This document shows positions 7,774 through 29,853 of a stretch of 38,908 bases of DNA, one piece after another. The stretch is taken from NCBI GenBank assembly GCA_005881335.1, contig VBFV01000036.1:1-38908 (forward strand), written 5' to 3'. The translations under genes and the position numbers were made by a program. Origin of the DNA: Chloroflexota bacterium (GTDB lineage: Bacteria; Chloroflexota; Dormibacteria; Dormibacterales; Dormibacteraceae). Under the pieces are notes generated by a model. That model searched no databases and was not told the origin of the DNA. It was given only the letters and a program-made list of their open reading frames with translations. Positions within the stretch are counted from its first letter, which is position 1, and every line of letters starts with the position of its first letter.

Positions 7774-8838
7774 TCAGCTTCCGCTCACGCCGTACTGCTG
7801 CTTGTCGCGCTCAAAGTCCTGCTCGTTGGTCTCGAAATGCGTCGTGCCCTGCCTGTCTGTGAAGTAAAAGAGGAAGTTCGTCTTGGGAGGATTGATGCAC
7901 GCGGCCAGCGCGGCTTTGCCAGGGTTGCTGATGGGGCCGGGCGGCAGTCCGGCGTGGATGCGCGTGTTGTATGGCGAGTCGAGCTGCAGCTCCGCAAAAG
8001 TCGGCTCGGGGGTCAGGCGCCCGAGCGCGTAGAGCAAGGTCGCATCGACGCCCAACGTCATGTTGATCTTCAGCCGGTTGTAGTAGACGCTGCAGACGTT
8101 TCCGCGGTCGGTTGCCGTCTTGTTGTTCGCCTCACGGTCGACCATCGAGGCCAGGATGACGATGGTCCGGATGTCCTCAGCTGGACGCCCTGACGTCGGT
8201 TGCGTGATCTGCGACCGCCAGTCGGCCGAGAAGACGGTACCGAACTGCTCCAGCTGCGCCTGGACGAGGCCCTTGGCCCCGATGACCGGGTCGACCAGGT
8301 ACGTGTCCGGGAACAGGTAGCCCTCAAACGGGAAGTCAGCGTTGGTCGGTCGCGCGGGCAGGAACTTGTACGTGGCAGCCCACGCGGGATCCTTCGCGAC
8401 CCGGAGGTAGTCGGCGCCTGTGATGTAGCTGGGCGCGGTGCCGAGCTTCTTCTGGTCGACCAGCGCGGCCTGGTAGCGGAGCGGGAATCCTTCCGGAAAC
8501 GTGATCGTCTTCTCGTCGGGACGCCCGTGCTGCAGGGCGCTGACGATCTGGCTGAGCGACATGTTGGAGTTGAGCACAAACGAGCCCGCCTGGAACTTCG
8601 GCCCGGCGTTGGTCGCGCGCGTGTAGACGTCCCACGCGATCGTGCTCCGGATGAGGTGCAGGTCATAGAGGTCGGTGCCAATCTGAGTTGGCGTCTCGCC
8701 CGGGTCGATGTGAAAGCTCACGTTCTGGCCCGACGACGAGATCGGCGTGTTGACGTTGAAGTTCCACCAATCGATTCCGCGCGAGACAAGGAAACCCAAC
8801 AGGGCAAGGACCACGACCACGGCGATCAGGCGTCTCAC
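7774..8838 (-). CDS. mltG: Endolytic murein transglycosylase MltG (YceG family)
   Basis: Inner-membrane enzyme that cleaves nascent peptidoglycan strands. The 354-aa protein starts with a membrane anchor (about residues 4-24). A LysM-like region follows (FHIDPGETPTQIGTDLYDL), then the YceG catalytic domain with FPFEGYLFPDTY, ASMVDREA, YYNRLKINMTLGVDATLLYALG and the conserved end SPYNTRIHAGLPPGPISNPG. In the motif usually written VEKE, the first acidic residue is Asp rather than Glu here. Start is GTG, overlapping the DUF1292 stop as GTGA. The alaS-ruvX-DUF1292-mltG order is conserved in Bacillus-type genomes. Confidence 0.95.
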   Translation of the reverse strand: MRRLIAVVVVLALLGFLVSRGIDWWNFNVNTPISSSGQNVSFHIDPGETPTQIGTDLYDLHLIRSTIAWDVYTRATNAGPKFQAGSFVLNSNMSLSQIVSALQHGRPDEKTITFPEGFPLRYQAALVDQKKLGTAPSYITGADYLRVAKDPAWAATYKFLPARPTNADFPFEGYLFPDTYLVDPVIGAKGLVQAQLEQFGTVFSADWRSQITQPTSGRPAEDIRTIVILASMVDREANNKTATDRGNVCSVYYNRLKINMTLGVDATLLYALGRLTPEPTFAELQLDSPYNTRIHAGLPPGPISNPGKAALAACINPPKTNFLFYFTDRQGTTHFETNEQDFERDKQQYGVSGS

Positions 8839-9056
8839 TCGACTCGGTCCTCTTCGAGCGCTTCCATCACGCGCTTGAACTCGTCCGCGTCGACCGTCTC
8901 GAGCCCACCCTCGGTCTCGCGCAGGAGCAGCACCCGGTCGGGGTCGCTCGTGTCCTCGACCAGGTAGAACGTCACACCATCGAGGTCGAAAGCATCGTGC
9001 AGCGTGAACCGGCGCTCGACCCCGGCGTCATCGATCAGCGTGACCTCTTCGCTCAA
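8835..9056 (-). CDS. DUF1292 family protein (YrzB-like)
   Basis: Small acidic 73-aa protein with the DUF1292 pattern: VTLIDDAGVERRFTLHDAF, then FYLVEDTSDPDRVLLLRET and a C-terminal EFKRVMEALEED. Function of the family is unknown; it is nearly always found next to ruvX and mltG, as here. Start is TTG, overlapping the ruvX stop as TTGA, and its own stop overlaps mltG. Confidence 0.88.
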   Translation of the reverse strand: MSEEVTLIDDAGVERRFTLHDAFDLDGVTFYLVEDTSDPDRVLLLRETEGGLETVDADEFKRVMEALEEDRVE

Positions 9057-9463
9057 CGACGTCGGTCGAGATGTGACTGCAGCAGCATTACCGCGGCCAC
9101 CCGGTCGACGGTGACGCGTCGCTTCGCGCGGCGGACACCGCCCGCGATCAATGAGCGCTCCGCCGCGACGGTGGTGAGGCGCTCGTCCACGAGCTCGACC
9201 GGCAGGCCGGATGCTTTGCGAAGCGAGTCCGCAAGCTCGCGTGCCGACTTCGCTTCGGGTCCGTACGAGCCGTCCATGCGGCGTGGCAACCCGACGATGA
9301 TGCGAGTCGCCTCTTTGTCGCGCGCGATCTCACCCAGGCGAGACGCAAGCGTTTCCGGCGGCGCGGCCTCGACGGTGGCAAGCGCCTGGGCGATCGTCCC
9401 TGTCGGGTCGCTGATGGCAAGTCCCACCCTCTTCGACCCGGGATCGACCGCCAGCACCCGCAC
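9053..9463 (-). CDS. ruvX: RuvX/YqgF family Holliday junction resolvase-like nuclease
   Basis: RNase H-fold protein; family members act in 16S rRNA 5' end maturation and have been proposed as Holliday junction resolvases. The 136-aa product has the first catalytic Asp in VLAVDPGSKRVGLA, the strand IIVGLPRRMDGSYGP, VDERLTT, and the last acidic residue in VDRVAAVMLLQSHLD. The ORF track extends this frame to 10273 through the upstream gene; the real start is GTG at 9463, sharing one base with the upstream stop (TAGTG). It lies between the baseplate-J-like gene and DUF1292. Confidence 0.94.
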   Translation of the reverse strand: MRVLAVDPGSKRVGLAISDPTGTIAQALATVEAAPPETLASRLGEIARDKEATRIIVGLPRRMDGSYGPEAKSARELADSLRKASGLPVELVDERLTTVAAERSLIAGGVRRAKRRVTVDRVAAVMLLQSHLDRRR

Positions 9464-11058
9464 TACGGCGATCGTTTGGGCGACGCCGACGGGCTGGGCG
9501 AAGCTTGCGCCGCCGCCGCGGCCGACGGCGCGTTCGACTCGACGACGTAGTGCAGCGTGATCCGGCGGTCGAGCAGCGGCATCAACGGGAGTGCCAGGGG
9601 CTGCTCCTTGATCGCGACCGACTTGATCGGCAGCTTCTCGAGGAAGAAGCGTGCCTGCGCCACCGGCCGGCCCACGATCGAGGCTCGGATTTTCTCCTCG
9701 TCCAGCTTCGGCGCAACGTAGGCCGAAGCGCTGCCGACGAAGACGAGGAAGCCGCCCTTGGCCGAGCTCAGAAGCCGGTACTGGACCTGGATCGGGCTCT
9801 CGGTCAGCAGCTGCTGATCGTTGGGCACGAGCCGCGTCAGGTGCGTCTTGTAGGCCTGGATGACGTCGGCGTCGTTGTAGAAGTCGCCTTCGCCACTGAC
9901 GGTCATCGTGCCCGTGAAGCTCGGCACCTTCTCCTGCGGCTGGTGGTCGGTCGTGAACTGCGGCGGGCCGAAGATGATCGTCTCGGCCAGCCTCTCGCCG
10001 GGCTGTCCGCCGGAGGAGAGCTCCTGCGCGATCGTCTGGTGGATCGACTGCTCGAGCTGCGCCCGCGCCGCGTCGAAGTCGGACACCGTCATCTGCGGGG
10101 TAGAGGAAGGATCGGTACCGTTGCCGGTGGCCTGCGGGTTGGTGACGTGGACTTTTGAAGCATCGAACGGCCCGCAGCATTCTTCGATCTGAGTGATTGT
10201 GTGGTCGCCGACGTTTCCGGCCGAGCCAGGCTTCACGGCGATTACGTTCACGGTCTTCTGGCCCCCGTTCCACGGCACAACGGTGTCACCAGACGTCTGG
10301 GCAAATTCGAGGCCGTTGGTGTTCATCAGCCGCTGGCCGTATCTGAACAGGAGTCCTGGCGAGCTTGTGAAACCTGACTTGAGATCGTTCGTATACACGA
10401 CCTGGCCCGTCGACGGCGCGAGCGGCACGTCGATCGAGCCGGTGACCTTGAAGCCCTGCGAGTTCGACTTCGCGATCACGACCGGCCTCACCTTGATCGG
10501 CGGCTTGCCCGGCTGCGCCGGGATCTCGACGTCCTTTTCGGTGAAGGGCGCAGCCTGTGCGATGAGCGTTACGGACGCCGACGGGACGAACACCGTGGCG
10601 GCGAAGAGGCCGACGAGGATCAGGGAGATCGCGGTCACGTAGAGCAGGAACCTTCCGGGCTTCAGCTCGGTCGCGGTCTTGGTGAGCAGCCTGGTCGGGG
10701 CGCCAATGCCGACATGCGTCGTCGGTGCGATGCGCTCGCGCTGCCACCACCTCCGGATCGGCTGCGCCGTCTCGGCTTCGGACGGGATGCCTTCGCCATC
10801 GGGGCTGACCGCGCCGAAAACAGGGAAGCCGCTCTCGGAGGCCATCTTCTGCACGGCCGGGTCGTCGCACACCACGGTCACGCGCTTGCCCAAACGGGCC
10901 GAGTAATTGCGAAGCAGCTGGAAGTTGAACCGGCTCTGGCCGATGCGCGATCGCATCGGCAGGACGAGCATCGTGTCCTCGCCGTGGTAGCGGCGAAGAC
11001 GCTCGACGAGCTCGGGAATCTCCTCTTCTGTTTCGACGTAAATCGGGTTCGTTGCCAT
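9463..11058 (-). CDS. Bitopic membrane protein with N-terminal Rossmann-like domain and baseplate-J-like extracellular region
   Basis: 531 aa. Residues 1-85 form an alpha/beta cytosolic domain (MLVLPMRSRIGQSRFNFQLL, then KRVTVVCDDPAVQKMASESG). Residues ~86-135 are a linker, and ~137-157 a single membrane segment. From 160 to ~505 the region is beta-rich and resembles baseplate J/gp47-like domains, with repeated VxV strands and NVGDHTITQIE. It ends in an Ala/Ser/Pro tail. No enzyme motif is seen. Similar bitopic proteins occur in other Terrabacteria and candidate phyla, but I know of no assigned function. It follows the FtsA-like gene by 28 bases, has an AGGAGA site 13 bases before its ATG, and the pair may work together at the membrane. 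The baseplate-J assignment is by pattern only. Confidence 0.7.
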   Translation of the reverse strand: MATNPIYVETEEEIPELVERLRRYHGEDTMLVLPMRSRIGQSRFNFQLLRNYSARLGKRVTVVCDDPAVQKMASESGFPVFGAVSPDGEGIPSEAETAQPIRRWWQRERIAPTTHVGIGAPTRLLTKTATELKPGRFLLYVTAISLILVGLFAATVFVPSASVTLIAQAAPFTEKDVEIPAQPGKPPIKVRPVVIAKSNSQGFKVTGSIDVPLAPSTGQVVYTNDLKSGFTSSPGLLFRYGQRLMNTNGLEFAQTSGDTVVPWNGGQKTVNVIAVKPGSAGNVGDHTITQIEECCGPFDASKVHVTNPQATGNGTDPSSTPQMTVSDFDAARAQLEQSIHQTIAQELSSGGQPGERLAETIIFGPPQFTTDHQPQEKVPSFTGTMTVSGEGDFYNDADVIQAYKTHLTRLVPNDQQLLTESPIQVQYRLLSSAKGGFLVFVGSASAYVAPKLDEEKIRASIVGRPVAQARFFLEKLPIKSVAIKEQPLALPLMPLLDRRITLHYVVESNAPSAAAAAQASPSPSASPKRSP

Positions 11059-11086
11059 GGCGTTTAGTGGTCTCCTGGAGATCTGT

Positions 11087-12346
11087 TCAGACTTTTATAG
11101 CGCTTAGGACCCGTCTCATGACGGTATTCACCGTATCGCGCTCCTCGGCTTCAGTTCGCAAAGCATGGTTGGCCAGGCCCATCGGGGCGATGTCCTGGGG
11201 GCTCGACAGCTGTCCCGTGGAGTCGGTCAGGTTGCGCACGTCGGGCGGCACGAGGTGCCTCACGCGCGGCTCCCTGGGGAACGGAAGGCCCGCCGCCCAG
11301 TTGTTCTTGACCATCTCGAGGGTCAGCTCGGGGAGGAGGCTGCCGCCTCCGCACAGGTAGATGCTGGAAGGCAGGCGCTCGCCTCGCGAGAGCTCCTTGA
11401 TGCTGAGGGCAAGCCCCTGCAAAAGCACTTCGGCGTCGGCGCCCAGCAGCTCCGACACCTGGCGGTGCTGGTCCGAGGACAAAAGGCCTTCCGAGTGGCG
11501 GAGCTTGCGGGCCTCGGCTTCCTCGTAGCTCAACCCGAAGGCCAGAGCGAGCCGGCGGGTGAACGCACGCCCGCCGAGGTTGAACATGCGCGTGCCCTCG
11601 ACTCCGCCGTCGCGGATGAGCGCCACGTCGGTGGTGCCGCCACCGACGTCGACGAAGATCCCTCCCTCGGCCCAGATCTCCTCATTGGCGCACGCCCGAG
11701 CGAGTGCGTAAGGCTGGGCGACCGCGGCGGCAAGCTCCAGGTCGAGCTCCCGGACCACCGTCTCGATGGCATCGATGTGCGTCATTGGGGCGAAGGTGTT
11801 GAAGACGGTGACCTCCAGGTTCTTGCCCGTGAAGCCGACGGGGTTAGTGACCGGGTAGCCGTCGACCCGAACGTTGGTGATCGCCGAGTGCACGAGCCGG
11901 GCCTCGAGCTGGCCGTAGCTGCGCTCCAACTCGAGCAGGTGCTGGGCCTCGCGCAGCGCGCGGCGCTGCACCATCTGCAGCATCGTCGACATCTCGCCTG
12001 AGCGGACGCGGGACTTGGGGTTCTCACGTGGGTACGCGATGGTCGAGGAGAATCCTTTGATCAGCTCGCCCGCGATGCCGACGACGACCTGGCCGGGCAC
12101 CGTCTTCGCCATGTCCTCAGCGGCCTCGAGCGCCCGGTTGCACGACTGGATGACCGATTCGAGGTCGGCGATCGCGCCCCCCGACATGGCGGCCGGGCCC
12201 TGCGGCTCCCTCCCCACGCCGAGCACCTCGCCGTCGGGACCGTCCCGCCGCACGACCAGGACCTTGATCAGGTCGGTGCCGATGTCCAGCACGGTGAAAT
12301 GGCGGTAGTAGTCGCTCCGCTTGCGCAGGAACTTGAACTTGCTCAC
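11087..12346 (-). CDS. FtsA-like actin-fold ATPase
   Basis: 419 aa with the actin/Hsp70 fold as in FtsA. Phosphate-1 motif VLDIGTDLIKV lies at about 19-29 and the SHS2/1C-type insert around VVVGIAGELIKGFSS. Phosphate-2 motif FVDVGGGTTDVAL is at about 231-243, NLGGRAFTRRLA at 256-267, and adenosine motif YLCGGGSLLPEL at 330-341. The last ~16 residues (TVNTVMRRVLSAIKV) could form an amphipathic membrane-binding helix like that of FtsA. PilM is an alternative, but the 1C-type insert favours FtsA. There is no ftsZ or other division gene nearby; it sits between alaS and the baseplate-J-like gene. GTG start overlaps the alaS stop as GTGA. Whether it is the cell's division FtsA or a paralogue cannot be told here. 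Confidence 0.82.
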   Translation of the reverse strand: MSKFKFLRKRSDYYRHFTVLDIGTDLIKVLVVRRDGPDGEVLGVGREPQGPAAMSGGAIADLESVIQSCNRALEAAEDMAKTVPGQVVVGIAGELIKGFSSTIAYPRENPKSRVRSGEMSTMLQMVQRRALREAQHLLELERSYGQLEARLVHSAITNVRVDGYPVTNPVGFTGKNLEVTVFNTFAPMTHIDAIETVVRELDLELAAAVAQPYALARACANEEIWAEGGIFVDVGGGTTDVALIRDGGVEGTRMFNLGGRAFTRRLALAFGLSYEEAEARKLRHSEGLLSSDQHRQVSELLGADAEVLLQGLALSIKELSRGERLPSSIYLCGGGSLLPELTLEMVKNNWAAGLPFPREPRVRHLVPPDVRNLTDSTGQLSSPQDIAPMGLANHALRTEAEERDTVNTVMRRVLSAIKV

Positions 12347-14910
12347 TTCAGCTCTTCCGCCAGGCGCTTGAACGCCTCGTCCGCGGGGACCGTCAGCTTG
12401 CCGCTGACCAGGTGGGGCCGGCCGCCGCCCGTGCCGAAGAAATCCTTGAGGCGCGTGGCATCGAACTGCGGCACGAGGTCATTGGACACCTTGATGACAA
12501 ACTTGTCTCCGGCGACAAGGGTTACGACGCCCGAGCGGACCCGTTCGAGGTAGCGGTCGGCGTAGGCCCTCAGCTCTTCGACGCTGGCAGCGTCGACCGT
12601 CTCCGCCACGTAGTCCACTCGGCCATGCTTGACCGCCAGGCCGTCTGCGCCTCCCACACGCGCAGAGCGCAGCTGGTCACGGAGCTTGGCGCGATCGCGT
12701 TCGGCCTCCTTGAGTTGACCGCGAAGCGCCTCGATGCGCTGTGGCAGCTGCTCCGGACTCACGTTGAAGGACTGGGCGAGCTCGGTCAGCAGGTCGCGTT
12801 CACGACGCACCAGCTCGTCCGCCGCCTCGCCGACGACCATGTCGATTCGGCGCAGCCCCGAGCCGATGCTGGACTCGGACACGATGACGGCGGTCCCGAT
12901 GTCGGCGGTGTTCTTCACGTGTGTGCCACCGCACAGCTCGCAGGTCCAGTCGCCGAAGCACACCACGCGGACGACGTCGCCGTATTTCTCTTCGAACAGG
13001 TGCATCGCGCCTTGCGCGACCGCTTCTTTGTACGGCTTGATGCTCTCGTGAAAAGGAAGCGCTTCTCGAATCTTTTCCATGACTCTGCGGTTGATCCGGT
13101 CGAGCTCATCCTTCGAGATCGCGCGGTTCAATGGGATGTCGAACGTGGTGTGATCGGGGCCGACCCAGGATCCTTTCTGCACGACCTGCTCGCCAAGAGT
13201 TTCGCGCAACGCCTTGTGGAGCAGGTGCGTGGCCGAGTGGTGGCGCATGATCTGACGCCGCCGCTTCATGTCCACCGCTGCGTCGGCCTTCTCCCCCACC
13301 CGTACCTCACCGGTGACCACGGTGCCGAGGTGCGCGATGGTGCCCTCCAGAGGTTTTTGTGTGTCTTCGACTCGAACGCGTCCGCTGGGAGTGTCGATCG
13401 TCCCGATATCGCCGATCTGTCCGCCCGACTCCGCGTAAAAGGGAGTCCGCTCGAGAAAGATCTCTATCTCGTCACCCTCCGCGGCGGCCTGAGCGAGGTC
13501 GCCGGCTTTGCGGATCGCGAGCACTTTGGTTGCAGTCGTCAGCTCTGTGTAGCCGGTGAACTCTGAGCGGGGGATGTCCTTGGTCACCGCCCAGCGGTGA
13601 GGAGTCGCCCGCCTGGATCGGTCGCGCTGCGCCGCCATCTCGGCGCGAAATCCGTCCTCGTCCACCTCGAGCCCGCGTGCCGCGGCCAGCTCACGCGTGA
13701 GCTCGAGCGGAAAACCGAAGGTGTCGTGAAGCCGGAAGGCATCGGCTCCCGAGACCGCGCTCGCGCCCCGTGAAGCCACCTTTTCGAATTGCTCCATGCC
13801 CTGCTCCAGGGTGCGCGCGAACCGCTCCGTCTCGGTGTCGATCGTCTGGGTTATGAATCGTTCTCGGTCCTTCAGCTCCGGGTAGTGCTCTCTGAACATC
13901 GCCACGGTCCGCTGCGCGCCGGCGGACAGCCTTGCGCTCAGAGCGATGTTGCGGCCGTGCAGCGCGGCGCGGCGGATGAGGCGACGCAGCACGTAGCCGC
14001 GACCTTCATTCGTCGGCACCACGCCATCGGCGATGCAGAACGTGATGGCTCGCACATGGTCGGCGATGATGCGCTCGGACAGAGTCGTCGGCTTCTTGCT
14101 GTGCTCTCGCACGAATTCGACCAGTGGCGCCAGCACGTCCGACTCGAAGACGTTGCTCTTGCCCTGGAGGATGAAGCTGATGCGCTCAAGTCCCATTCCG
14201 GTGTCGATGGCGGGCTTGGCGAGCGGCACCAGCGCGCCATCAGCGATGCCGCGGTTGATCGACTCGGCCGTCGTCGGCGGTCCTGAAAGATCCCCGCGCT
14301 GGTCGTACTGCGGCAACACGAGATTCCAGAACTCTGTGAAGCGCGCACAGTGATCGGGATAGCAGTCCGGCTGGCCGCATCCGGCCTCGCGGCCGCGGTC
14401 CCACCAGATCTCGGAATCCGGGCCGCACGGCCCTCGTCCAAGTCCCCACCAGTTGGTGCCGTCCCGCGTCACGTGTTCCGCGCGAATCGCCGTTTTGGTC
14501 GTCCAGATCTCGAAGGCAGCGTCGTCCGAAGGATGGACGGTCGCGCGTAGACGATCGGGTGGCATGCCGAAGCCTTTGGTCACCAACTCCCATGCGAGGG
14601 GGATCGCCGTCTCTTTGAAGTAGTCGCCCGTGGGTGCGAAGTTGCCGAGCATCTCGAAAAACGTGAGGTGACGTTCGGTTTTCCCGACCTCTTCAATGTC
14701 GCCGGTGCGCAGGCATTTCTGGGCGCTCGCCAGCCTGGGCGCGGGCGGCCGGCTAAAGCCCAGGTAGTAGGGCTGAAGCGGCTGCATTCCGGCCGAGATG
14801 AAGAGCGTGCTCGGGTCGCCGTGCGGCACCAGTGGCGCGCTGGGCAGGACCAGATGCTCCCGACTCGCGAAATGCTCTAGAAAGCGCGTGCGGATCTCGT
14901 TCCCGGTCAC
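12343..14910 (-). CDS. alaS: Alanyl-tRNA synthetase
   Basis: 855-aa class II synthetase, near the usual ~870. The N-terminal catalytic domain starts MTGNEIRTRFLEHFASREH, with motif 2 region FFEMLGNFAPTGDYFK and motif 3 region GMGLERI. The editing domain has HHSATHLLHKAL (about 557-568) and the zinc/editing CELCGGTHV block near residue 655. A coiled region and a DHHA1-type C-terminal domain with FFGTGGGRPHLVSG follow. A small Cys/His-rich insert (CGQPDCYPDHC) near 178-188 also occurs in some AlaRS. Start is GTG with no Shine-Dalgarno; TAAACT lies 11 bases upstream, suggesting a short or absent leader. It heads the 15-kb minus-strand train. Confidence 0.97.
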   Translation of the reverse strand: MTGNEIRTRFLEHFASREHLVLPSAPLVPHGDPSTLFISAGMQPLQPYYLGFSRPPAPRLASAQKCLRTGDIEEVGKTERHLTFFEMLGNFAPTGDYFKETAIPLAWELVTKGFGMPPDRLRATVHPSDDAAFEIWTTKTAIRAEHVTRDGTNWWGLGRGPCGPDSEIWWDRGREAGCGQPDCYPDHCARFTEFWNLVLPQYDQRGDLSGPPTTAESINRGIADGALVPLAKPAIDTGMGLERISFILQGKSNVFESDVLAPLVEFVREHSKKPTTLSERIIADHVRAITFCIADGVVPTNEGRGYVLRRLIRRAALHGRNIALSARLSAGAQRTVAMFREHYPELKDRERFITQTIDTETERFARTLEQGMEQFEKVASRGASAVSGADAFRLHDTFGFPLELTRELAAARGLEVDEDGFRAEMAAQRDRSRRATPHRWAVTKDIPRSEFTGYTELTTATKVLAIRKAGDLAQAAAEGDEIEIFLERTPFYAESGGQIGDIGTIDTPSGRVRVEDTQKPLEGTIAHLGTVVTGEVRVGEKADAAVDMKRRRQIMRHHSATHLLHKALRETLGEQVVQKGSWVGPDHTTFDIPLNRAISKDELDRINRRVMEKIREALPFHESIKPYKEAVAQGAMHLFEEKYGDVVRVVCFGDWTCELCGGTHVKNTADIGTAVIVSESSIGSGLRRIDMVVGEAADELVRRERDLLTELAQSFNVSPEQLPQRIEALRGQLKEAERDRAKLRDQLRSARVGGADGLAVKHGRVDYVAETVDAASVEELRAYADRYLERVRSGVVTLVAGDKFVIKVSNDLVPQFDATRLKDFFGTGGGRPHLVSGKLTVPADEAFKRLAEELK

Positions 14911-21082: not shown

Positions 21083-21418
21083 GTGACAACGGCATATGTG
21101 CAGCTGGTCTCGGTGATCCTCGCGTCGCTGGCGCTGATCATGGGCGCCTACCTGCTCATCATCGGCAAGCGGCCGTGGCGTGGCGGCGAGAAGTCAGACG
21201 TGGCGCCGCGCGTGAGGCTGCTCGGCCTGAGCTACATCCTCGTTTTCGGTGCCGCCATGATCCAGATCATCGCCCAGCCGTCCGGCGTCGAAGCCGAAGC
21301 CCTCGGTGGGTTCATGGTGTTGGGCGGGATGATCGTGATCATCGTCGTCTACCTCGAAGCGCGGGCCTCACGGCGGGCATCGCACGAAGACCGTCTGGAC
21401 ACGCGGCTCAGAAGCTAG
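21083..21418 (+). CDS. Small hypothetical membrane protein
   Basis: 111 aa with three hydrophobic segments (about residues 6-27, 48-65 and 73-92) and a charged C-terminus (RRASHEDRLDTRLRS). No family recognised. Start is GTG at 21083 without Shine-Dalgarno. It is divergent from hisS and convergent with the hybrid sensor gene, whose stop overlaps its own by 4 bases. Codon use looks like its neighbours, so it is probably a real gene, but no function can be given. Confidence 0.65.
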   Translation: MTTAYVQLVSVILASLALIMGAYLLIIGKRPWRGGEKSDVAPRVRLLGLSYILVFGAAMIQIIAQPSGVEAEALGGFMVLGGMIVIIVVYLEARASRRASHEDRLDTRLRS

Positions 21419-23028
21419 AGCCCGGCCTTCTCTCGGTTCGTGCGGTAGCCCACCGCGGCTTTCAACGCCTCGCTCAGCTCTTCGAGGCGCACGGGCTTGC
21501 TCATGTAGTCGTCGAAGCCCGCGCGCATGCAGCGCTCCTGGTCACCCGGCCCGGCCATGGCCGTGAGCGCGATCAGGCGCGGCCGGTTGCCCCGTGGCCA
21601 GCGGCGGCAGATGGCCTCCGCCGCGACAAGGCCGTCCATCTCCGGCATCAGCACGTCCATCAGCACGGCGTCATATGGCTCCTGCGCCACCGAGGCGACC
21701 GCCTCGCGACCGTTGGAGACGACGTCGGCGGTGTGGCCCAGCTTGCTGACCAGCCGCTTCAAGAGGTTCTGGTTCAACGCGTTGTCGTCCGCGACCAGGA
21801 CGCGAAGCGCACCCGGTTCCACCTGACGCGCCGGCTGCGGTTGGGCACCGCGCCCGCCGACCTGGATCATCACGTCGTGCAGCGTCCGCGGCGGCACCGG
21901 CTTGGTGAGCGTCGCCTGGATCAACCCGCTGTCGGCCGCGGCGGCTTCGACGGGACCTAGAGCCGCCGACGCGATCAGCACGATGGGCATCTGCTCGGGA
22001 CCTCGTGAGGCTCGAAGCGCGGTGGAGATCTCCAGCCCGTCGATGGCCGGCGGGCGATGCTCGATCAGCGCGATGTCGAACGAACGCCCGACCTGGATCG
22101 CGCCGAGCGCCTCTTCGGTGGTCGCCGATGTGGCCGTGGCTCCCCACTGCTCGACCTGGAGCGCGAGGACGCGCTTCTCGGTCGGGTCGGGGGCGATGAT
22201 CAGGACGTGCATCGCCTCGAGGGTCAGCAACGTGGTGGCCATCGCTCCAGGCAGGCTTTCGCCGAGGACGGTGAAGCCGAAGGTGGTGCCCGCGTCCGGC
22301 CCCGCCTCCACCCCTCCCTGCTCCACGCGAAGCTCACCGTCCATCATCTCGACCAGCTGCTTGGTCGTGCGCAGGCTCAGCACGGCCAGCCGGTCGCCTG
22401 GTTCGAGCTTGTCGTAGGGACCGGTCACGCCGTCGAGACCGCCACGAAGGATCCTCGCCGGCACGCCCCGACCGGTGTCGCGGATGTTGAACTGCAGCGC
22501 TACGAGGCCGCCGCGGTCTTCCGACGACAGCTCGATGCCGACCCCACCGCGATACGTGCGATCGACCGCGCCGTGCAGCAGCGTCATTAGGATCTGCTCG
22601 AGGCGCCGCGAGTCGCCAATCAGGACGTTCGGTACTTCCGGCGCAGCACTAAAGGAGATGTCGAGGCCCTTCGCGCCCGCCGCCTCAGAGACGAGGGCGA
22701 GGCAGCTCTCGACGGTCGAGCGGACGTCAAACGGGTGCAGCGCGAGCTCGAACTCGCCACTCTCGATGGTGACCGCGTCGAGCACCTCGTCCACGATGCG
22801 CGCGACCTGCTCGGCGCCCGTCTCGACGATCGCCGCCAGGTCGCGCTCCTCCCTCGTCTCCGCGCCGGTGGAAAGCAGGCCGGCCGCGCCGATCACCGCG
22901 TTGAGCTGGTTCCGCAGTTGGTGGCCGACGTCGGCCAGCAGCTCCGAATCGACCTGGATCAGGCGGTGCGGATGCCCGTCGGCGTGTTGCTCGGGTGGCT
23001 CCGCTCCGACGTCGCGAAACTCTCCCAT
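21415..23028 (-). CDS. Hybrid sensor-kinase-like protein with two receiver domains, partly degenerate
   Basis: 537 aa without membrane segments. A HisKA-like domain (residues ~25-90) has His36 in ADVGHQLRNQLNAV. An HATPase_c domain (~100-255) keeps the DTGRGVP box, but the conserved N-box Asn is Gly153 (TLLHGAVDRT). Receiver 1 (~273-390) has Glu323 (ALIEHRPPAIDG) in place of the phospho-accepting Asp. Receiver 2 (~408-530) is canonical, with ADDN, Asp458 in VLMDVLMPEMDG, and KPV. So kinase activity is doubtful and receiver 1 may mimic the phosphorylated state. It starts at the cpaF stop (TGATG), so it belongs to the pilus motor operon and may control pilus output; that role is inferred. Confidence 0.88.
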   Translation of the reverse strand: MGEFRDVGAEPPEQHADGHPHRLIQVDSELLADVGHQLRNQLNAVIGAAGLLSTGAETREERDLAAIVETGAEQVARIVDEVLDAVTIESGEFELALHPFDVRSTVESCLALVSEAAGAKGLDISFSAAPEVPNVLIGDSRRLEQILMTLLHGAVDRTYRGGVGIELSSEDRGGLVALQFNIRDTGRGVPARILRGGLDGVTGPYDKLEPGDRLAVLSLRTTKQLVEMMDGELRVEQGGVEAGPDAGTTFGFTVLGESLPGAMATTLLTLEAMHVLIIAPDPTEKRVLALQVEQWGATATSATTEEALGAIQVGRSFDIALIEHRPPAIDGLEISTALRASRGPEQMPIVLIASAALGPVEAAAADSGLIQATLTKPVPPRTLHDVMIQVGGRGAQPQPARQVEPGALRVLVADDNALNQNLLKRLVSKLGHTADVVSNGREAVASVAQEPYDAVLMDVLMPEMDGLVAAEAICRRWPRGNRPRLIALTAMAGPGDQERCMRAGFDDYMSKPVRLEELSEALKAAVGYRTNREKAGL

Positions 23029-24554
23029 CAGTAAAGCTGCTCCGTCGGTGGTTGATTCACCTGCGTGAACATCGAAATCGGAAACTCCACTCCGTTGGTC
23101 TGGAAATGCGCGAAGAAGTTGGAGCGGGTCCCGGTCGGGGTGTGATAGCCGACCGCGCGACCGTCGGGTGTGACCCCGACCTGCCGGAACGAGAACAGCT
23201 CCTGCAGGGCGATCTCACCGTCGACCATGCCGAGCACCTCCGCCACGCTCACGATCTTCCTCGCGCCGCCACGCAACCTCTCGGTCTGCACAACGATGTT
23301 GATCGCCGACGCAATCTGTCCGCGGATGGCGCGTGACGGAAGTTCCGTCCCTGCGAGGAGGACCAGCGTTTCGAGACGTGTGATCGCGTCGCGCGGGTTG
23401 TTGGCGTGCAGCGTGCTCATCGAACCGTCATGGCCGGTGTTCATCGCCTGGAGCATGTCCAGCGCCTCGCCACCCCGGACCTCGCCGACGATGATCCGGT
23501 CGGGACGCATGCGCAGCGAGTTGCGCACCAGGTCGCGAATCATGATCTCGCCGTGTCCTTCGACGTTGGCTGGTTTGGACTCGAGGCTGATCACGTGGAC
23601 TTGGCGCAGTCGCAACTCGGCCGCGTCTTCGCACGTGACGATTCGCTCGTTGGCGGGGATGAACCCGGACAGGACGTTGAGCAGAGTCGTCTTGCCGGAG
23701 CCGGTGCCACCAGAGACGATGATGTTCAGCCGGGTCTTCACCGCGGCGTCGAGATATTCGAGGATCCCTTCGCTCGAGCCGCCGGTGGCCACGATCTTCT
23801 CAGGGGTCAACACCTCGCGGCCGAACTTGCGGATCGTCAGGCACGGGCCGTAGATCGCGACCGGTGGGATGACGACGTTCACGCGCGAGCCGTCCTTCAA
23901 TCGCGCATCGCACATCGGCTCCGACTCATCCACGCGCCGTCCGATCGTCGAGACGATCCTGTCGATGACGCGCCGCAGGCTGGCCTCGTCCTCGAAGGCG
24001 AGGTTGGTCAGCTCGATCCGGCCGCGTCGCTCGACGAAGATCTGCTCCGGCCGGTTGACCATGATCTCGGTGATGTCCGGGTCGCGCAGCGGCGCCTCCA
24101 GCGGACCGAGCCCGATGACCTCGTCGAAGAGGATCTCGACCAGGCGCTCCCGGTCGGCCGCGGTGACCAGCGCGGCCGGGGGCTTGAGCCGGAAGTGCTC
24201 GTCGGTCAGCTGCATGAGGAGCCGCCTGATGCCCGCGCGGTTGGTGATGTCGATCGCCGCGGCGTGCCGTCGCAAGAGGTCGGAATGGATCTCCGCCTTG
24301 GCGGCGGCCAGCGCGGGGCTGAGCACGGCCGGGCCCTCGACGCGCGGCGTCTCCACCACGGCGATCGTCCCCTCTCGCGCCACCGCCCGCCGCTCCACCG
24401 GGGCGATGCTGGGCACCCCGTCGATCGGCGTCTGCGGTCCGGTGACGGGGGTCTGCGGTCCGGTGACGGGGGTTTGCGGCCCGGTGACCGGGGTTTGCGG
24501 CGCGGTTGCCGGCGTCTGCTGGTAGCGGCGGTCGAACCTCTCGGAAAGCTTCAT
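23028..24554 (-). CDS. cpaF: CpaF/TadA-type pilus assembly ATPase
   Basis: 508-aa hexameric secretion ATPase powering Tad/Flp pilus assembly. The N-terminus carries a Pro/Thr-rich repeat tract (residues ~13-46). The N-terminal domain follows, with LFDEVIGLGPLEAPLRDPDI. The ATPase core has Walker A GGTGSGKT at 282-289, an Asp box around CEDAAELRL, Walker B RIIVGEVRG at about 353-361 and the His box MNTGHDGSMSTLHAN at about 371-385. ATG overlaps the HEAT-repeat gene stop (ATGA) and its stop overlaps the hybrid sensor. It is transcribed away from the rest of the tad genes. Confidence 0.95.
   Translation of the reverse strand: MKLSERFDRRYQQTPATAPQTPVTGPQTPVTGPQTPVTGPQTPIDGVPSIAPVERRAVAREGTIAVVETPRVEGPAVLSPALAAAKAEIHSDLLRRHAAAIDITNRAGIRRLLMQLTDEHFRLKPPAALVTAADRERLVEILFDEVIGLGPLEAPLRDPDITEIMVNRPEQIFVERRGRIELTNLAFEDEASLRRVIDRIVSTIGRRVDESEPMCDARLKDGSRVNVVIPPVAIYGPCLTIRKFGREVLTPEKIVATGGSSEGILEYLDAAVKTRLNIIVSGGTGSGKTTLLNVLSGFIPANERIVTCEDAAELRLRQVHVISLESKPANVEGHGEIMIRDLVRNSLRMRPDRIIVGEVRGGEALDMLQAMNTGHDGSMSTLHANNPRDAITRLETLVLLAGTELPSRAIRGQIASAINIVVQTERLRGGARKIVSVAEVLGMVDGEIALQELFSFRQVGVTPDGRAVGYHTPTGTRSNFFAHFQTNGVEFPISMFTQVNQPPTEQLY
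24427..24522 (-). repeat. 21-bp tandem repeat inside cpaF
   Basis: Four full 21-base units (24427-24447, 24448-24468, 24469-24489, 24490-24510) and a 12-base partial unit encode the heptapeptide QTPVTGP and variants. The third and fourth units carry several substitutions, mainly at synonymous positions. The tract lies in the N-terminal linker, so copy-number changes would stay in frame. Confidence 0.9.
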
Positions 24555-25393
24555 CGCGGCCTGCTCACCGCACGCCGCAGGAGGCGACGGTAAGCTCGAT
24601 CGGCAGTCTTCTTGACCGTCTGGTCTGGATCAGCCTCCGCAAGACGATGGAGGCCGTCGGCGGCGGAAGGGTCGCCGATCATGGCCAGCGCCTTGCAGGC
24701 CGCCAGCCGAACCGGCAGCGGCCATCTGCGGTCATGCGCGATCCCGAGCAGCGGCGACACGCGGAGCACGTCCCGGCGGAGGCCGCAGGCGAGGACCGTG
24801 GCGACTGCCGCGCGCTCACTCGCCGGCTGACGCATCAGCGCCTCGATGTCCACGTCGGAGGCGGCGCGCGACAGCGCGATGGCAAGGCGGTACAGGGGGA
24901 TCCCGTCGGCGGAGGCCATGATCTGCTCGACCGCCCGCCGGCCCCCCAGCCGGGACAGCGAACGCACTGCGGCGTCCTGCACCGGAGGGCTGGCATCCTG
25001 CAGCAGGTCCGCGATCCAGACGATCGACTCGGACAACCGGGCCGCGCCGCAGATCCTGGCCGCCGCGGCCCGCGTGGCGGGGTGGGGGCTGGCGAGCGCG
25101 TTCAGGAGGTCGTCGTGCAGCCCGGAGCGACGCAGCAGCTCGTGCGCCATGAAGTGCCCGAGGACGCCTACCCCAGGGCGGTCGAGGGCGGATTCGAACA
25201 CGGCCGCCACGGCCACGGGGTCGGCCAGCAGCTCAGCGCTCGTGGCGTTAAGAACCGCCGCACGCTCGCCCGCGAGGGCAGAGTTAAGCACCCGCTCAAC
25301 ACGTCCGGCCAGCCGGGAACGTACGGCCGTGCGGACTGAGGGCTGCGTCGGCAGCCGTGTATTTGAGCCATTGCTGCGAAGCGAAGGGTCCAT
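24551..25393 (-). CDS. HEAT-repeat protein of the pilus locus
   Basis: 280 aa, predicted all-helical and soluble. About five to six HEAT/PBS-lyase-like repeats run from residue ~60 to 275, visible in LLNALASPHPATRAAAARI, LLQDASPPVQDAAVRSLSRL and LPVRLAACKALAMIGDPSAA. The N-terminus (1-40) is basic and low in structure. HEAT repeats are protein-binding scaffolds; no catalytic motif is seen. It is the first gene of the minus-strand cpaF operon, overlapping cpaF by 4 bases, and could be an adaptor for the motor or for the neighbouring regulators. A TACTGT hexamer lies 16 bases before its ATG. Confidence 0.82.
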   Translation of the reverse strand: MDPSLRSNGSNTRLPTQPSVRTAVRSRLAGRVERVLNSALAGERAAVLNATSAELLADPVAVAAVFESALDRPGVGVLGHFMAHELLRRSGLHDDLLNALASPHPATRAAAARICGAARLSESIVWIADLLQDASPPVQDAAVRSLSRLGGRRAVEQIMASADGIPLYRLAIALSRAASDVDIEALMRQPASERAAVATVLACGLRRDVLRVSPLLGIAHDRRWPLPVRLAACKALAMIGDPSAADGLHRLAEADPDQTVKKTADRAYRRLLRRAVSRPR

Positions 25394-27212: not shown

Positions 27213-27826
27213 GACTTTCCAAATCCGGCCAAGCCCTCCTGGAGTTCGCGCTCATCGCGCCCGTGGTGCTGCTGATGATCGGCGCGACCGTCGACCTCGG
27301 TCGCGGCCTGTTGATCTACACCATGCTTCAGGGCGCGTCGCGCGATATGGCGCGACAGGCGGTCCTTGAGTACTACAGCGGCTCCAACACCCTGCCACCG
27401 ACGTGCACGGCTCTTGCCACGCCCTGCTCGCTGGGTCCGCTGACCAACGGCGCGCACCAACTGGACGCCCTCGGCATGTCCGTCGTCTACCAGGACTCGA
27501 CCGCAATCAGCAGCCCGCCTTCATACGGGACGTACGCGGCCAACGCCAACCCGCTTCTCCCGGGGACGATCACGTTGACCGGAGCCATCAACGCAAGCAC
27601 CGTCTACGTCTTCGTCTACGAGCTGGACGCGACCGGTGGCAACCCGAACCCGCGGTGGAGCTGTCCTTCTTGCGCCGGCGCCGCCGGCGCCGCTGTGCGC
27701 ACGTCGGGTCATCAGCTCGTCGTCGTCGACCTGAAGCTGCAGTGGAAGCCGGTGGTGAACACGCTGCTCGGCATCCCGAGCGTGATCACGTTCGACTCGC
27801 AGTCGGTCGAGAGGTTGGAGTTCTGA
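27209..27826 (+). CDS. TadE/TadF-like pseudopilin
   Basis: 205 aa starting with GTG at 27209 (MRLSKSGQALLEFALIAPVV); GTGA overlaps the first TadE stop. The ORF track joins this frame to an upstream shadow from 26924. The TadE helix is at residues ~7-30, followed by an extracellular region with Cys pairs (CTALATPC, CPSC). It is probably processed by the prepilin peptidase and acts as a second minor pilin or TadF equivalent. Confidence 0.9.
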   Translation: MRLSKSGQALLEFALIAPVVLLMIGATVDLGRGLLIYTMLQGASRDMARQAVLEYYSGSNTLPPTCTALATPCSLGPLTNGAHQLDALGMSVVYQDSTAISSPPSYGTYAANANPLLPGTITLTGAINASTVYVFVYELDATGGNPNPRWSCPSCAGAAGAAVRTSGHQLVVVDLKLQWKPVVNTLLGIPSVITFDSQSVERLEF

Positions 27827-29853
27827 TGCACCGGCACGACCGGCAGTCGGGTCAGGTGATGATCATCGTCGCGGTCTGGCTGGTGGCGCTGATCGGGTCG
27901 GCAGCTTTGATCCTGCTGGCAGGCTCGGTGGAGTGGCAGCGCAACCAGCTGCAGCAGCTCGCCGACCAGGCGGCGCTCGACGCTGCGCTCAAGATCGGCG
28001 TCTCCTGCGACAACGCCAAGGCGAGCACTGTCATCACCGAGGCCGACAACTTCCTCGCCACGCAGCGCACTCGCACCGGCGCGTTGAACATCGGAGCCGG
28101 CACGTGCGCCGGCGGTTACACCGGCACCGATACGTTTTCGGGCGCGTTGAGCGAAACCATCCACTATCCGTACCGGGCGCACCAGCAGCAGGTCGAAGTC
28201 ATCTTGACCGTGTCCCTGCCGATCTCCTTCGGCAGTTACATGGGCGCATCGAACACCAACGTCACGCGACGTGCGGTCGCGCAGCAGCTGAGTGGATCGA
28301 CCGCGGCTGTCTCCGCGACCACCCTGTCGTGCACCGGTGGACAGTTCAACGTCGCGGGCACCATCGCCGCTTCGAACGCGATCACGTTGAGCGGCGCCTG
28401 CGCGATGTACGCGCACACGCGATTCGACGCGGCCTCGAGCACCTACTCGGACCTCGGCAACGCGTCGGTGTACGCCAATGGACAGGCATGGGTCGCCGGC
28501 GGCGGGCTGTGCGTCGCAGGTTCGAACGCCGGGTCGAGCAACGCCGTGTGCGCCGACGGCTACGAGCTGTCCGGCCACAACGCGACGACATGCGGGACGT
28601 CCGGAACGAGCGCCTACCTGTCGGCCGGCGACGCGGCGGTCAACGCCAACCCGTGCGCCGGCGGAAGCGGTGCCCACCCGGTCCCGCCGCTGTCCACCGC
28701 GCGACCGCCCGAGCCGAACACGGACGCGGCCGCGATCGGCACTTTGCAAGGAACGGGCGGCGCAGCATGCACACCCGGCGGCGTCTATCCCAACATCACC
28801 GCGGGCGGAACTGTCGTCGGCACCGGCCTTGGGCCCTCACCCGCGAGTGCCGACGCGAGCGGCTTCTACCACTTCAAACCGAGCTGCTACGGCTACTTGA
28901 ACCTCAGCACCATGGCAGGCGGCATTTCTGCCAGGCAGATCGGTGCAGAGAGTGCCCGCCAACGCCATTTCATAACGGCGACCATGCCGGCCGCGAGCCA
29001 GGCGGGCACCCTGCTCGTGGCCACCGTCTCCGCAGAGACGACCCCCAACAAGTTCGCCGCCACCGCCGGCTGGGTTTCGGCCGCCGAGGCCAACCAGGCC
29101 GGCGAGGGCCGGAGCGAGATCTGGTACTACGCGAACAACCCCGGCGGAATCAACAGCGTCACCTTCACCCTGAACCCCGCGACCGTCAACGGAAACGCCC
29201 AGCTGAGCGAGTGGACCGGGGTCGCCGTGGCTTCCCCGCTCGACCAGTCAGGATCGCAAACCGTTGCGGTGCCGACTACTACGACCACGGTCTCGACCGG
29301 CGGGGCGGTGACCCAGACCGGCGAGCTCGTGATCACAATCGATGGCTTTCAGAACCTGCCAGGACAGACCTTCTCACGTGCCGCGGGCTGGACTGGCGCC
29401 GTGACTGACATCGCGAACGGCTACAGCTCCGAGTACCGCCTCGACCTGCCGACCGGGGTCGCGTCCGAGACTCTGACTGCGGGTGTTCCCTCACTCTGGG
29501 CAAACGCAATCGCGACCTTCAAGCCCGCGAGTGCCGGCGGGGGCGCCGTGCTCGACCCGGGCTTCTATTACTTCAACGGCTCGGGTTTCGCAGGCGGAGG
29601 AGGGATCTGCCTCAACGGGGGCGAGCTGCTGGCCCGGGACGTGACGCTCGAGTTCGTCAACCAGACCGGCTTCTCGACGGGGACGTGCGCGGCTGGCGGC
29701 GGGGCTGCCTGCGCCGCCACGACCTGCCAGTTCGGTTCCACCCCCTGCTCGATCTCTGCGTGCCCGCCCAACGCTGCGGCGGACTCGGCCGGCGGGGGCT
29801 TGACCTGGTTTGCCGCCCCGTGCTCCCAGGCCCCGACCGGGGACTCGAGCTGA
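27826..29853 (+). CDS. TadG-like pilus protein with inserted beta-sandwich-like domain, 3' frameshift
   Basis: 675 aa. The N-terminal TadG-type membrane segment (GQVMIIVAVWLVALIGSAAL, residues ~9-28) is followed by the QRNQLQQLADQAALDAAL helix. A large Gly/Ala/Cys-rich extracellular region has two similar stretches, GFYHFKPSCYGYL (~346-358) and PGFYYFNGSGFAGGGG (~578-593). Between them (~364-567) lies a separate domain with AGWVSAAEANQAGEG, WYYANNPGGINSVTFTL and LSEWTGVA, similar to adhesin-type modules. The ORF ends at TGDSS*, but the family-like C-terminus continues at once in the next frame. Start ATG overlaps the previous stop (TGATG). The ORF track start at 27403 is a shadow. Confidence 0.85.
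   Translation: MHRHDRQSGQVMIIVAVWLVALIGSAALILLAGSVEWQRNQLQQLADQAALDAALKIGVSCDNAKASTVITEADNFLATQRTRTGALNIGAGTCAGGYTGTDTFSGALSETIHYPYRAHQQQVEVILTVSLPISFGSYMGASNTNVTRRAVAQQLSGSTAAVSATTLSCTGGQFNVAGTIAASNAITLSGACAMYAHTRFDAASSTYSDLGNASVYANGQAWVAGGGLCVAGSNAGSSNAVCADGYELSGHNATTCGTSGTSAYLSAGDAAVNANPCAGGSGAHPVPPLSTARPPEPNTDAAAIGTLQGTGGAACTPGGVYPNITAGGTVVGTGLGPSPASADASGFYHFKPSCYGYLNLSTMAGGISARQIGAESARQRHFITATMPAASQAGTLLVATVSAETTPNKFAATAGWVSAAEANQAGEGRSEIWYYANNPGGINSVTFTLNPATVNGNAQLSEWTGVAVASPLDQSGSQTVAVPTTTTTVSTGGAVTQTGELVITIDGFQNLPGQTFSRAAGWTGAVTDIANGYSSEYRLDLPTGVASETLTAGVPSLWANAIATFKPASAGGGAVLDPGFYYFNGSGFAGGGGICLNGGELLARDVTLEFVNQTGFSTGTCAAGGGAACAATTCQFGSTPCSISACPPNAAADSAGGGLTWFAAPCSQAPTGDSS

Follow-up and report, generated by a model that had tools for sequence, protein, structure and literature searches.

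In the FtsA/PilM superfamily of bacterial actins, bitopic partners are bound in the 1A–1C cleft, as in FtsA–FtsN and PilM–PilN, and these two pairs have been compared as analogous (PMC7613929). MreB–RodZ is similar in that a bitopic protein links a membrane-bound bacterial actin to wall synthesis. Here we describe a gene pair of related design in the contig VBFV01000036.1 (assembly GCA_005881335.1; the whole stretch of 38,908 nucleotides is referred to below as the window), which belongs to an incomplete metagenome-assembled genome (MAG; 2.2 Mb, 80% complete) of a soil bacterium of the Dormibacteria (Chloroflexota). By sequence, its named relatives are MAGs labelled 'Chloroflexi bacterium CF_' and Candidatus Dormiibacterota. 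The pair lies on the minus strand and encodes an FtsA-like actin of 419 residues (FtsAL; positions 11087–12346) and a bitopic baseplate-J protein of 531 residues (BpJ; positions 9463–11058), where an earlier reading made from the sequence alone (the original prediction) had placed them. The two appear to constitute an undescribed cell-envelope machine; no description of the pair was found in the openly accessible literature searched, a coverage outside which many subscription journals lie.

FtsAL, whose GTG start codon overlaps the alaS stop codon, matches the Pfam family FtsA (PF14450; E value, 1.6e-13) and also the FtsA equivalog model TIGR01174 (3.5e-32), the latter with 111.9 bits against a cut-off of 175.85; the scores for PilM (TIGR01175; 37.4 bits, cut-off 133) and MreB (PF06723; 24.6 bits, cut-off 27) are likewise below threshold. 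The AlphaFold2 model of FtsAL (mean predicted local distance difference test score (pLDDT), 89.3) is nearest in fold to FtsA, whose FtsN-bound structure 7q6i is among the matches, the best solved match being E. coli FtsA (7q6d; template modelling scores, 0.74/0.81), followed by PilM (about 0.6/0.7). The ATP-site motifs DIGT (phosphate 1), DVGGGTTD (phosphate 2), and GGGS (adenosine loop) are kept. Moreover, the C-terminal amphipathic helix VNTVMRRVLSAIKV (positions 11087–11131, minus strand; residues 405–418 in the model) is conserved in Dormibacteria, other Chloroflexota, and Patescibacteria, and occupies the position at which FtsA bears its membrane-targeting helix, making it a candidate membrane-targeting sequence; its hydrophobic moment ranks in the top 2.7% of the windows of the protein, with a shuffle P < 0.1 in 93–100% of the members. 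The expected actin-fold ATPase with a C-terminal amphipathic helix was thus found, combining an FtsA fold with ATP motifs. In the final tree, computed under a mixture model with Shimodaira–Hasegawa-like approximate likelihood-ratio test (SH-aLRT) support only, MreB, PilM, FtsA (20 rows), and FtsAL (27 rows) form four clades (SH-aLRT 100, 100, 99, and 94, respectively; FtsAL core, 96). The tree sets no branching order among PilM, FtsA, and FtsAL, and long branches meet there, so that their separateness is firmer than their order. Since FtsAL, like PilM, falls outside the FtsA clade, it is a distinct family and makes up a fourth clade next to those of MreB, FtsA, and PilM, which corrects the original prediction.

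The search for a second FtsA and for FtsZ that had been proposed to check the prediction revealed a canonical ftsA directly before ftsZ in the same genome (G000:C179), with FtsAL on another contig, and FtsAL as the sole FtsA was accordingly rejected. Among 61 Dormibacteria genomes, nearly all carry FtsAL together with a second, weaker match, namely the canonical FtsA. Within the class, FtsAL and canonical FtsA have a mean identity of about 22%, as against 36.5% between canonical FtsA and its E. coli counterpart. It is conceivable, if unlikely, that FtsAL is a second divisome FtsA that binds septal FtsZ and is partnered there by BpJ in the manner of FtsN: the closest solved structures are those of FtsA, the genome also contains canonical ftsA and ftsZ, and MltG, encoded downstream of the pair, is also active at septa in other bacteria, but the separate contig, the separate clade, and the low identity to canonical FtsA all weigh against such a role. 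The resemblance to FtsA–FtsN (PMC7613929) consists in the actin fold, ATP motifs, C-terminal amphipathic helix, and a bitopic partner with a cytosolic part, whereas FtsAL forms its own clade, scores below the TIGR01174 cut-off, and is encoded away from the ftsZ/dcw cluster in a genome that has canonical FtsA as well.

A role in piliation was weighed in the same manner. According to this explanation, a pilus or Tad-like system would be served by an inner-membrane platform of the pilus or secretion type, in which FtsAL would be the equivalent of PilM and BpJ would take the place of PilN/PilO. PilM has an FtsA-type fold and binds a bitopic partner (PMC7613929). The window contains a prepilin peptidase gene (PF01478; 6348–7010) two genes past mltG, which follows mltG and aroE in nearly all Dormibacteria loci read, together with a T2SSE ATPase accompanied by a hybrid histidine kinase and a HEAT-repeat protein (21415–25393) and a large TadE/G-like protein (27403–29853), these last two regions being possibly an unusual pilus or secretion cluster. 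In addition, the lysine after DIGT sits two places later in FtsAL than in FtsA, at what we take to be the PilM-type position after DIG(S/T). FtsAL as a PilM was nonetheless rejected, because it falls far below the TIGR01175 cut-off and outside the PilM clade, which reaches its SH-aLRT of 100 without FtsAL. A separate true PilM was found in 74 of the 116 Patescibacteria sampled, several of which also have FtsAL, and PilM above the cut-off was found in none of 251 Chloroflexota genomes; this distribution speaks against a pilus role. Furthermore, the neighbours of FtsAL are alaS, BpJ, ruvX, and mltG instead of pilN/pilO/pilC/pilB, the prepilin peptidase is confined to Dormibacteria, and pilus assembly genes were not seen beside the pair outside Dormibacteria in loci with identified neighbours. 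The pilus explanation is therefore rather unlikely.

MreB, for its part, is a distant clade, and a separate mreB occurs in the same genome (G000:C155). FtsAL as a replacement for MreB was rejected, since most genomes with FtsAL also have MreB, although some have no MreB. No MreB was seen in two FtsAL-bearing families (f19 and f26). Ktedonobacteria are reported to lack mreBCD (PMC10608941), and family f19 may, as a guess, be Ktedonobacteria; if so, FtsAL would not need MreB.

BpJ starts with ATG, preceded by an AGGAG-like sequence, and its AlphaFold2 model (mean pLDDT, 87.9) shows, in order, a Rossmann-like α/β domain (residues 1–95; positions 10774–11058, minus strand), a low-confidence linker, a membrane helix (residues 134–156; 10591–10659, minus strand), a β region, a baseplate-J domain (about residues 229–320; 10099–10374, minus strand), a long helix, and a mixed α/β C-terminal part. 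Residues 1–95 have the order β-α-β-α-β-α and are matched weakly by Foldseek to the folds of receivers and of sugar-phosphate enzymes. The sequence contains one hydrophobic stretch, at about 134–156, with a Kyte–Doolittle 19-residue mean of up to 2.36; the charge is +4 before this stretch and −1 after it, which places the N-terminus inside. The predicted cytosolic Rossmann-like domain and single membrane segment are thus borne out by model, hydrophobicity, and charge pattern. BpJ matches PF04865 (Baseplate_J) with 4.1e-5 and 23.5 bits, over the gathering score of 21.1, and the same family was matched in 22 of 43 relatives (best, 1.7e-12). The BpJ family profile finds, among solved sequences, Mu gp47 (2.5e-7) and the cyanophage wedge protein gp31 (1.4e-5), and the J domain gives Foldseek E values of 3e-8 in the PDB and 9e-9 in viral models (probability, 1.0). 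Taken together, the Pfam match, the family profile, and Foldseek show the J domain of BpJ to be homologous to that of phage and contractile-system baseplate proteins such as Mu gp47 and cyanophage A-1(L) gp31. The outer region, for which a baseplate-J fold had been predicted, did not model as an unrelated fold; only about 110–140 residues are superposable on baseplate J and demonstrably of this type, and longer alignments have root-mean-square deviations >20 Å, so that they give no support for a likeness of the whole outer region to a phage J protein. The order of helices and strands at residues 396–486 (α-β-β-α-β) may resemble that of ring-building motifs of secretion and sporulation proteins. 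Unlike the phage proteins, BpJ is membrane-anchored behind a cytosolic domain, and a scan of the window proteins in the vicinity of the pair revealed no tail, sheath, or other baseplate genes. BpJ looks like a phage-type baseplate domain in use as a cellular envelope part. It also differs from FtsN: where BpJ has a folded cytosolic domain (about 95 residues) and a baseplate-J outer region, FtsN has a short tail and a SPOR domain.

Conservation of the pair was surveyed in genomes that are for the most part MAGs, with deep sampling of Chloroflexota and Patescibacteria; in an open scan over 84,980 species, the best 80 loci were in Chloroflexota, Patescibacteria, or bacteria without a group label, and other phyla may hold the pair. 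With the two genes counted as adjacent when BpJ follows FtsAL in the same orientation at a distance of ≤1.5 kb, adjacency was seen at 65/65 loci in Dormibacteria, 14/14 in other Chloroflexota, and 37/39 in Patescibacteria (where a few genomes are counted twice), with median gaps of 41–145 bases. In one of the two Patescibacteria exceptions (L243), BpJ follows after two inserted genes; in another locus (L318), the block is rearranged and FtsAL and BpJ are still a few kilobases apart. A gene for an NYN-domain protein lies between FtsAL and BpJ in one Patescibacterium (L300:6004-6618).

The slot itself is shared. The minus-strand order in the window is sigma factor, pdxH, alaS, FtsAL, BpJ, ruvX, DUF1292, mltG, aroE, prepilin peptidase, and a bPH-domain protein, so that RuvX, DUF1292, and MltG follow the pair as predicted; in the Bacillus-type order, ireB/yrzL occupies the slot between alaS and ruvX. 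The block is tightly packed: alaS (12343–14910) shares 4 bases with FtsAL, a gap of 28 bases separates FtsAL from BpJ, and BpJ overlaps by one base with ruvX (9053–9463; PF03652, 2.3e-39; GTG start at 9463), all on the minus strand, as are the DUF1292 gene (8835–9056; PF06949, 5e-5), for which several relatives' loci gave no match, and mltG (7774–8838; PF02618, 5.1e-66), encoding a lytic transglycosylase. An upstream alaS was present at 56/56 loci in Dormibacteria and 11/12 in other Chloroflexota, and ruvX is a constant neighbour downstream. The alaS–FtsAL–BpJ–ruvX–mltG block also occurs in Berkelbacteria, Wirthbacteria, and many other Patescibacteria, as in Chloroflexota, and MltG is the constant enzyme neighbour of the pair in Dormibacteria, other Chloroflexota, and Patescibacteria. 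Chance is ruled out as the source of the arrangement, because both the pair and its gene order are conserved across phyla.

The pairing is, however, asymmetric, which qualifies the predicted conserved pair. FtsAL was found in 114 of 192 Patescibacteria genomes, and BpJ in 185 of 192 Patescibacteria and 176 of 251 Chloroflexota genomes (some of these matches being paralogues). In genomes without detectable FtsAL, BpJ usually still lies downstream of alaS, and in many of them ruvX and/or mltG come after it (L320, L323, L333, L334, and L338); where checked, the alaS–bpJ gap contained a sugar isomerase, another enzyme, or no gene, and no hidden divergent FtsAL. Dependence of BpJ on FtsAL was rejected, the range of BpJ being broader. 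Conversely, two Chloroflexota families retain a strongly decayed FtsAL beside BpJ (L335:6344-7651 and L337:7315-8391), which is recognised by profile with a probability of 98.6–99.8 and has altered ATP motifs; these pseudo-actins may keep a binding role. The wide occurrence of BpJ without FtsAL and the decay of FtsAL beside BpJ indicate that FtsAL leans on BpJ and not the reverse: judging from gene distribution, BpJ is the core, with FtsAL as a regulator or scaffold that has been lost on several occasions. BpJ-like proteins also occur elsewhere: second copies without the Rossmann-like domain lie beside nuo genes in some Dormibacteria (L076:6193-7302 and L077:5524-6621), and Chloroflexota genomes of family f19 (G121, G105, G191, and others) hold up to five, many of 650–960 residues.

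Such a distribution bears on whether FtsAL and BpJ are simply unrelated housekeeping passengers of the alaS–ruvX–mltG operon, kept by co-transcription and not by joint function. The whole block is conserved and BpJ often occurs without FtsAL, as expected of passengers, but FtsAL hardly ever occurs apart from an adjacent BpJ, its decay happens beside BpJ, and the two remain within a few kilobases of each other in the rearranged L318 block, which makes this explanation quite improbable. The persistence of decayed FtsAL beside BpJ (L335 and L337) is counted in favour of a single machine. Moreover, the N-terminal domain of BpJ in Patescibacteria was matched in 73/79 members accompanied by a strong FtsAL, 6/22 with a divergent one, and 10/44 with none, as would be expected if this domain touches FtsAL.

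As to the process served, the genes around the block favour wall growth. Besides mltG, they include, in three Patescibacteria loci, mreB after mltG (L267:10706-14915, L172:14460-17249, and L302:13054-14118), accompanied, where the sequence reaches, by mreC and a PBP2-type transpeptidase; one of the Patescibacteria MreB calls is by Pfam, and the others are 51–76% identical to that one. A LysM-CHAP wall hydrolase is encoded downstream of the block in L268 and L317, and an SLH-domain protein near it in Peregrinibacteria. In L267, a short reverse-transcriptase-like open reading frame (8710-9282; PF00078, 3.3e-8) lies between mltG and mreB.

Collectively, we favour, by a modest balance of probability, the interpretation that FtsAL and BpJ are parts of one envelope machine in which a membrane-bound actin gathers a bitopic organiser of wall enzymes. 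FtsAL, presumably as a polymer, would gather or position BpJ through direct contact with the cytosolic Rossmann-like domain; BpJ would span the membrane once and probably self-assemble through its baseplate-J-type outer region, and the assembled outer region may organise cell-wall enzymes, with MltG as the first candidate. The logic would be that of FtsA–FtsN, PilM–PilN, and MreB–RodZ, in which the bitopic protein ties a cytoplasmic actin to an outer activity.

Several points weigh against this interpretation. The inserted neighbours (sugar isomerases and the NYN domain) indicate that the slot accepts unrelated genes, the alaS–ruvX–mltG neighbourhood is known in other bacteria that have neither FtsAL nor BpJ, and mltG may be a positional neighbour only. 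The association of the BpJ N-terminal domain with FtsAL is confounded by phylogeny, the lineages not being independent, and several Chloroflexota without FtsAL keep the domain. As BpJ occurs without FtsAL in many genomes, often with this domain intact, FtsAL is dispensable for the basic role of BpJ.

A bolder proposal, which we put forward tentatively and hold to be possible without being probable, is that of an ancestral trans-envelope wall machine of Patescibacteria, Dormibacteria, and other Chloroflexota, distinct from the divisome, the elongasome, and the pilus. It would consist of a BpJ ring or lattice built on the baseplate-J domain, near-universal in Patescibacteria, and would be steered in many lineages by FtsAL as a dedicated third class of membrane-bound actin of the FtsA/PilM type.

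From the family matches, these genes are expected to be labelled 'FtsA' and 'baseplate J' in databases, both of which would be misleading, and FtsAL explains why automatic annotation may count two copies of FtsA. The shared gene arrangement links Patescibacteria with Chloroflexota. The pair has been kept in Patescibacteria genomes streamlined to about 1 Mb, and such retention points to an aspect of envelope growth, both important and unstudied, in a very large bacterial group. The pair offers a candidate, open to testing, for the way in which these cells organise their wall.

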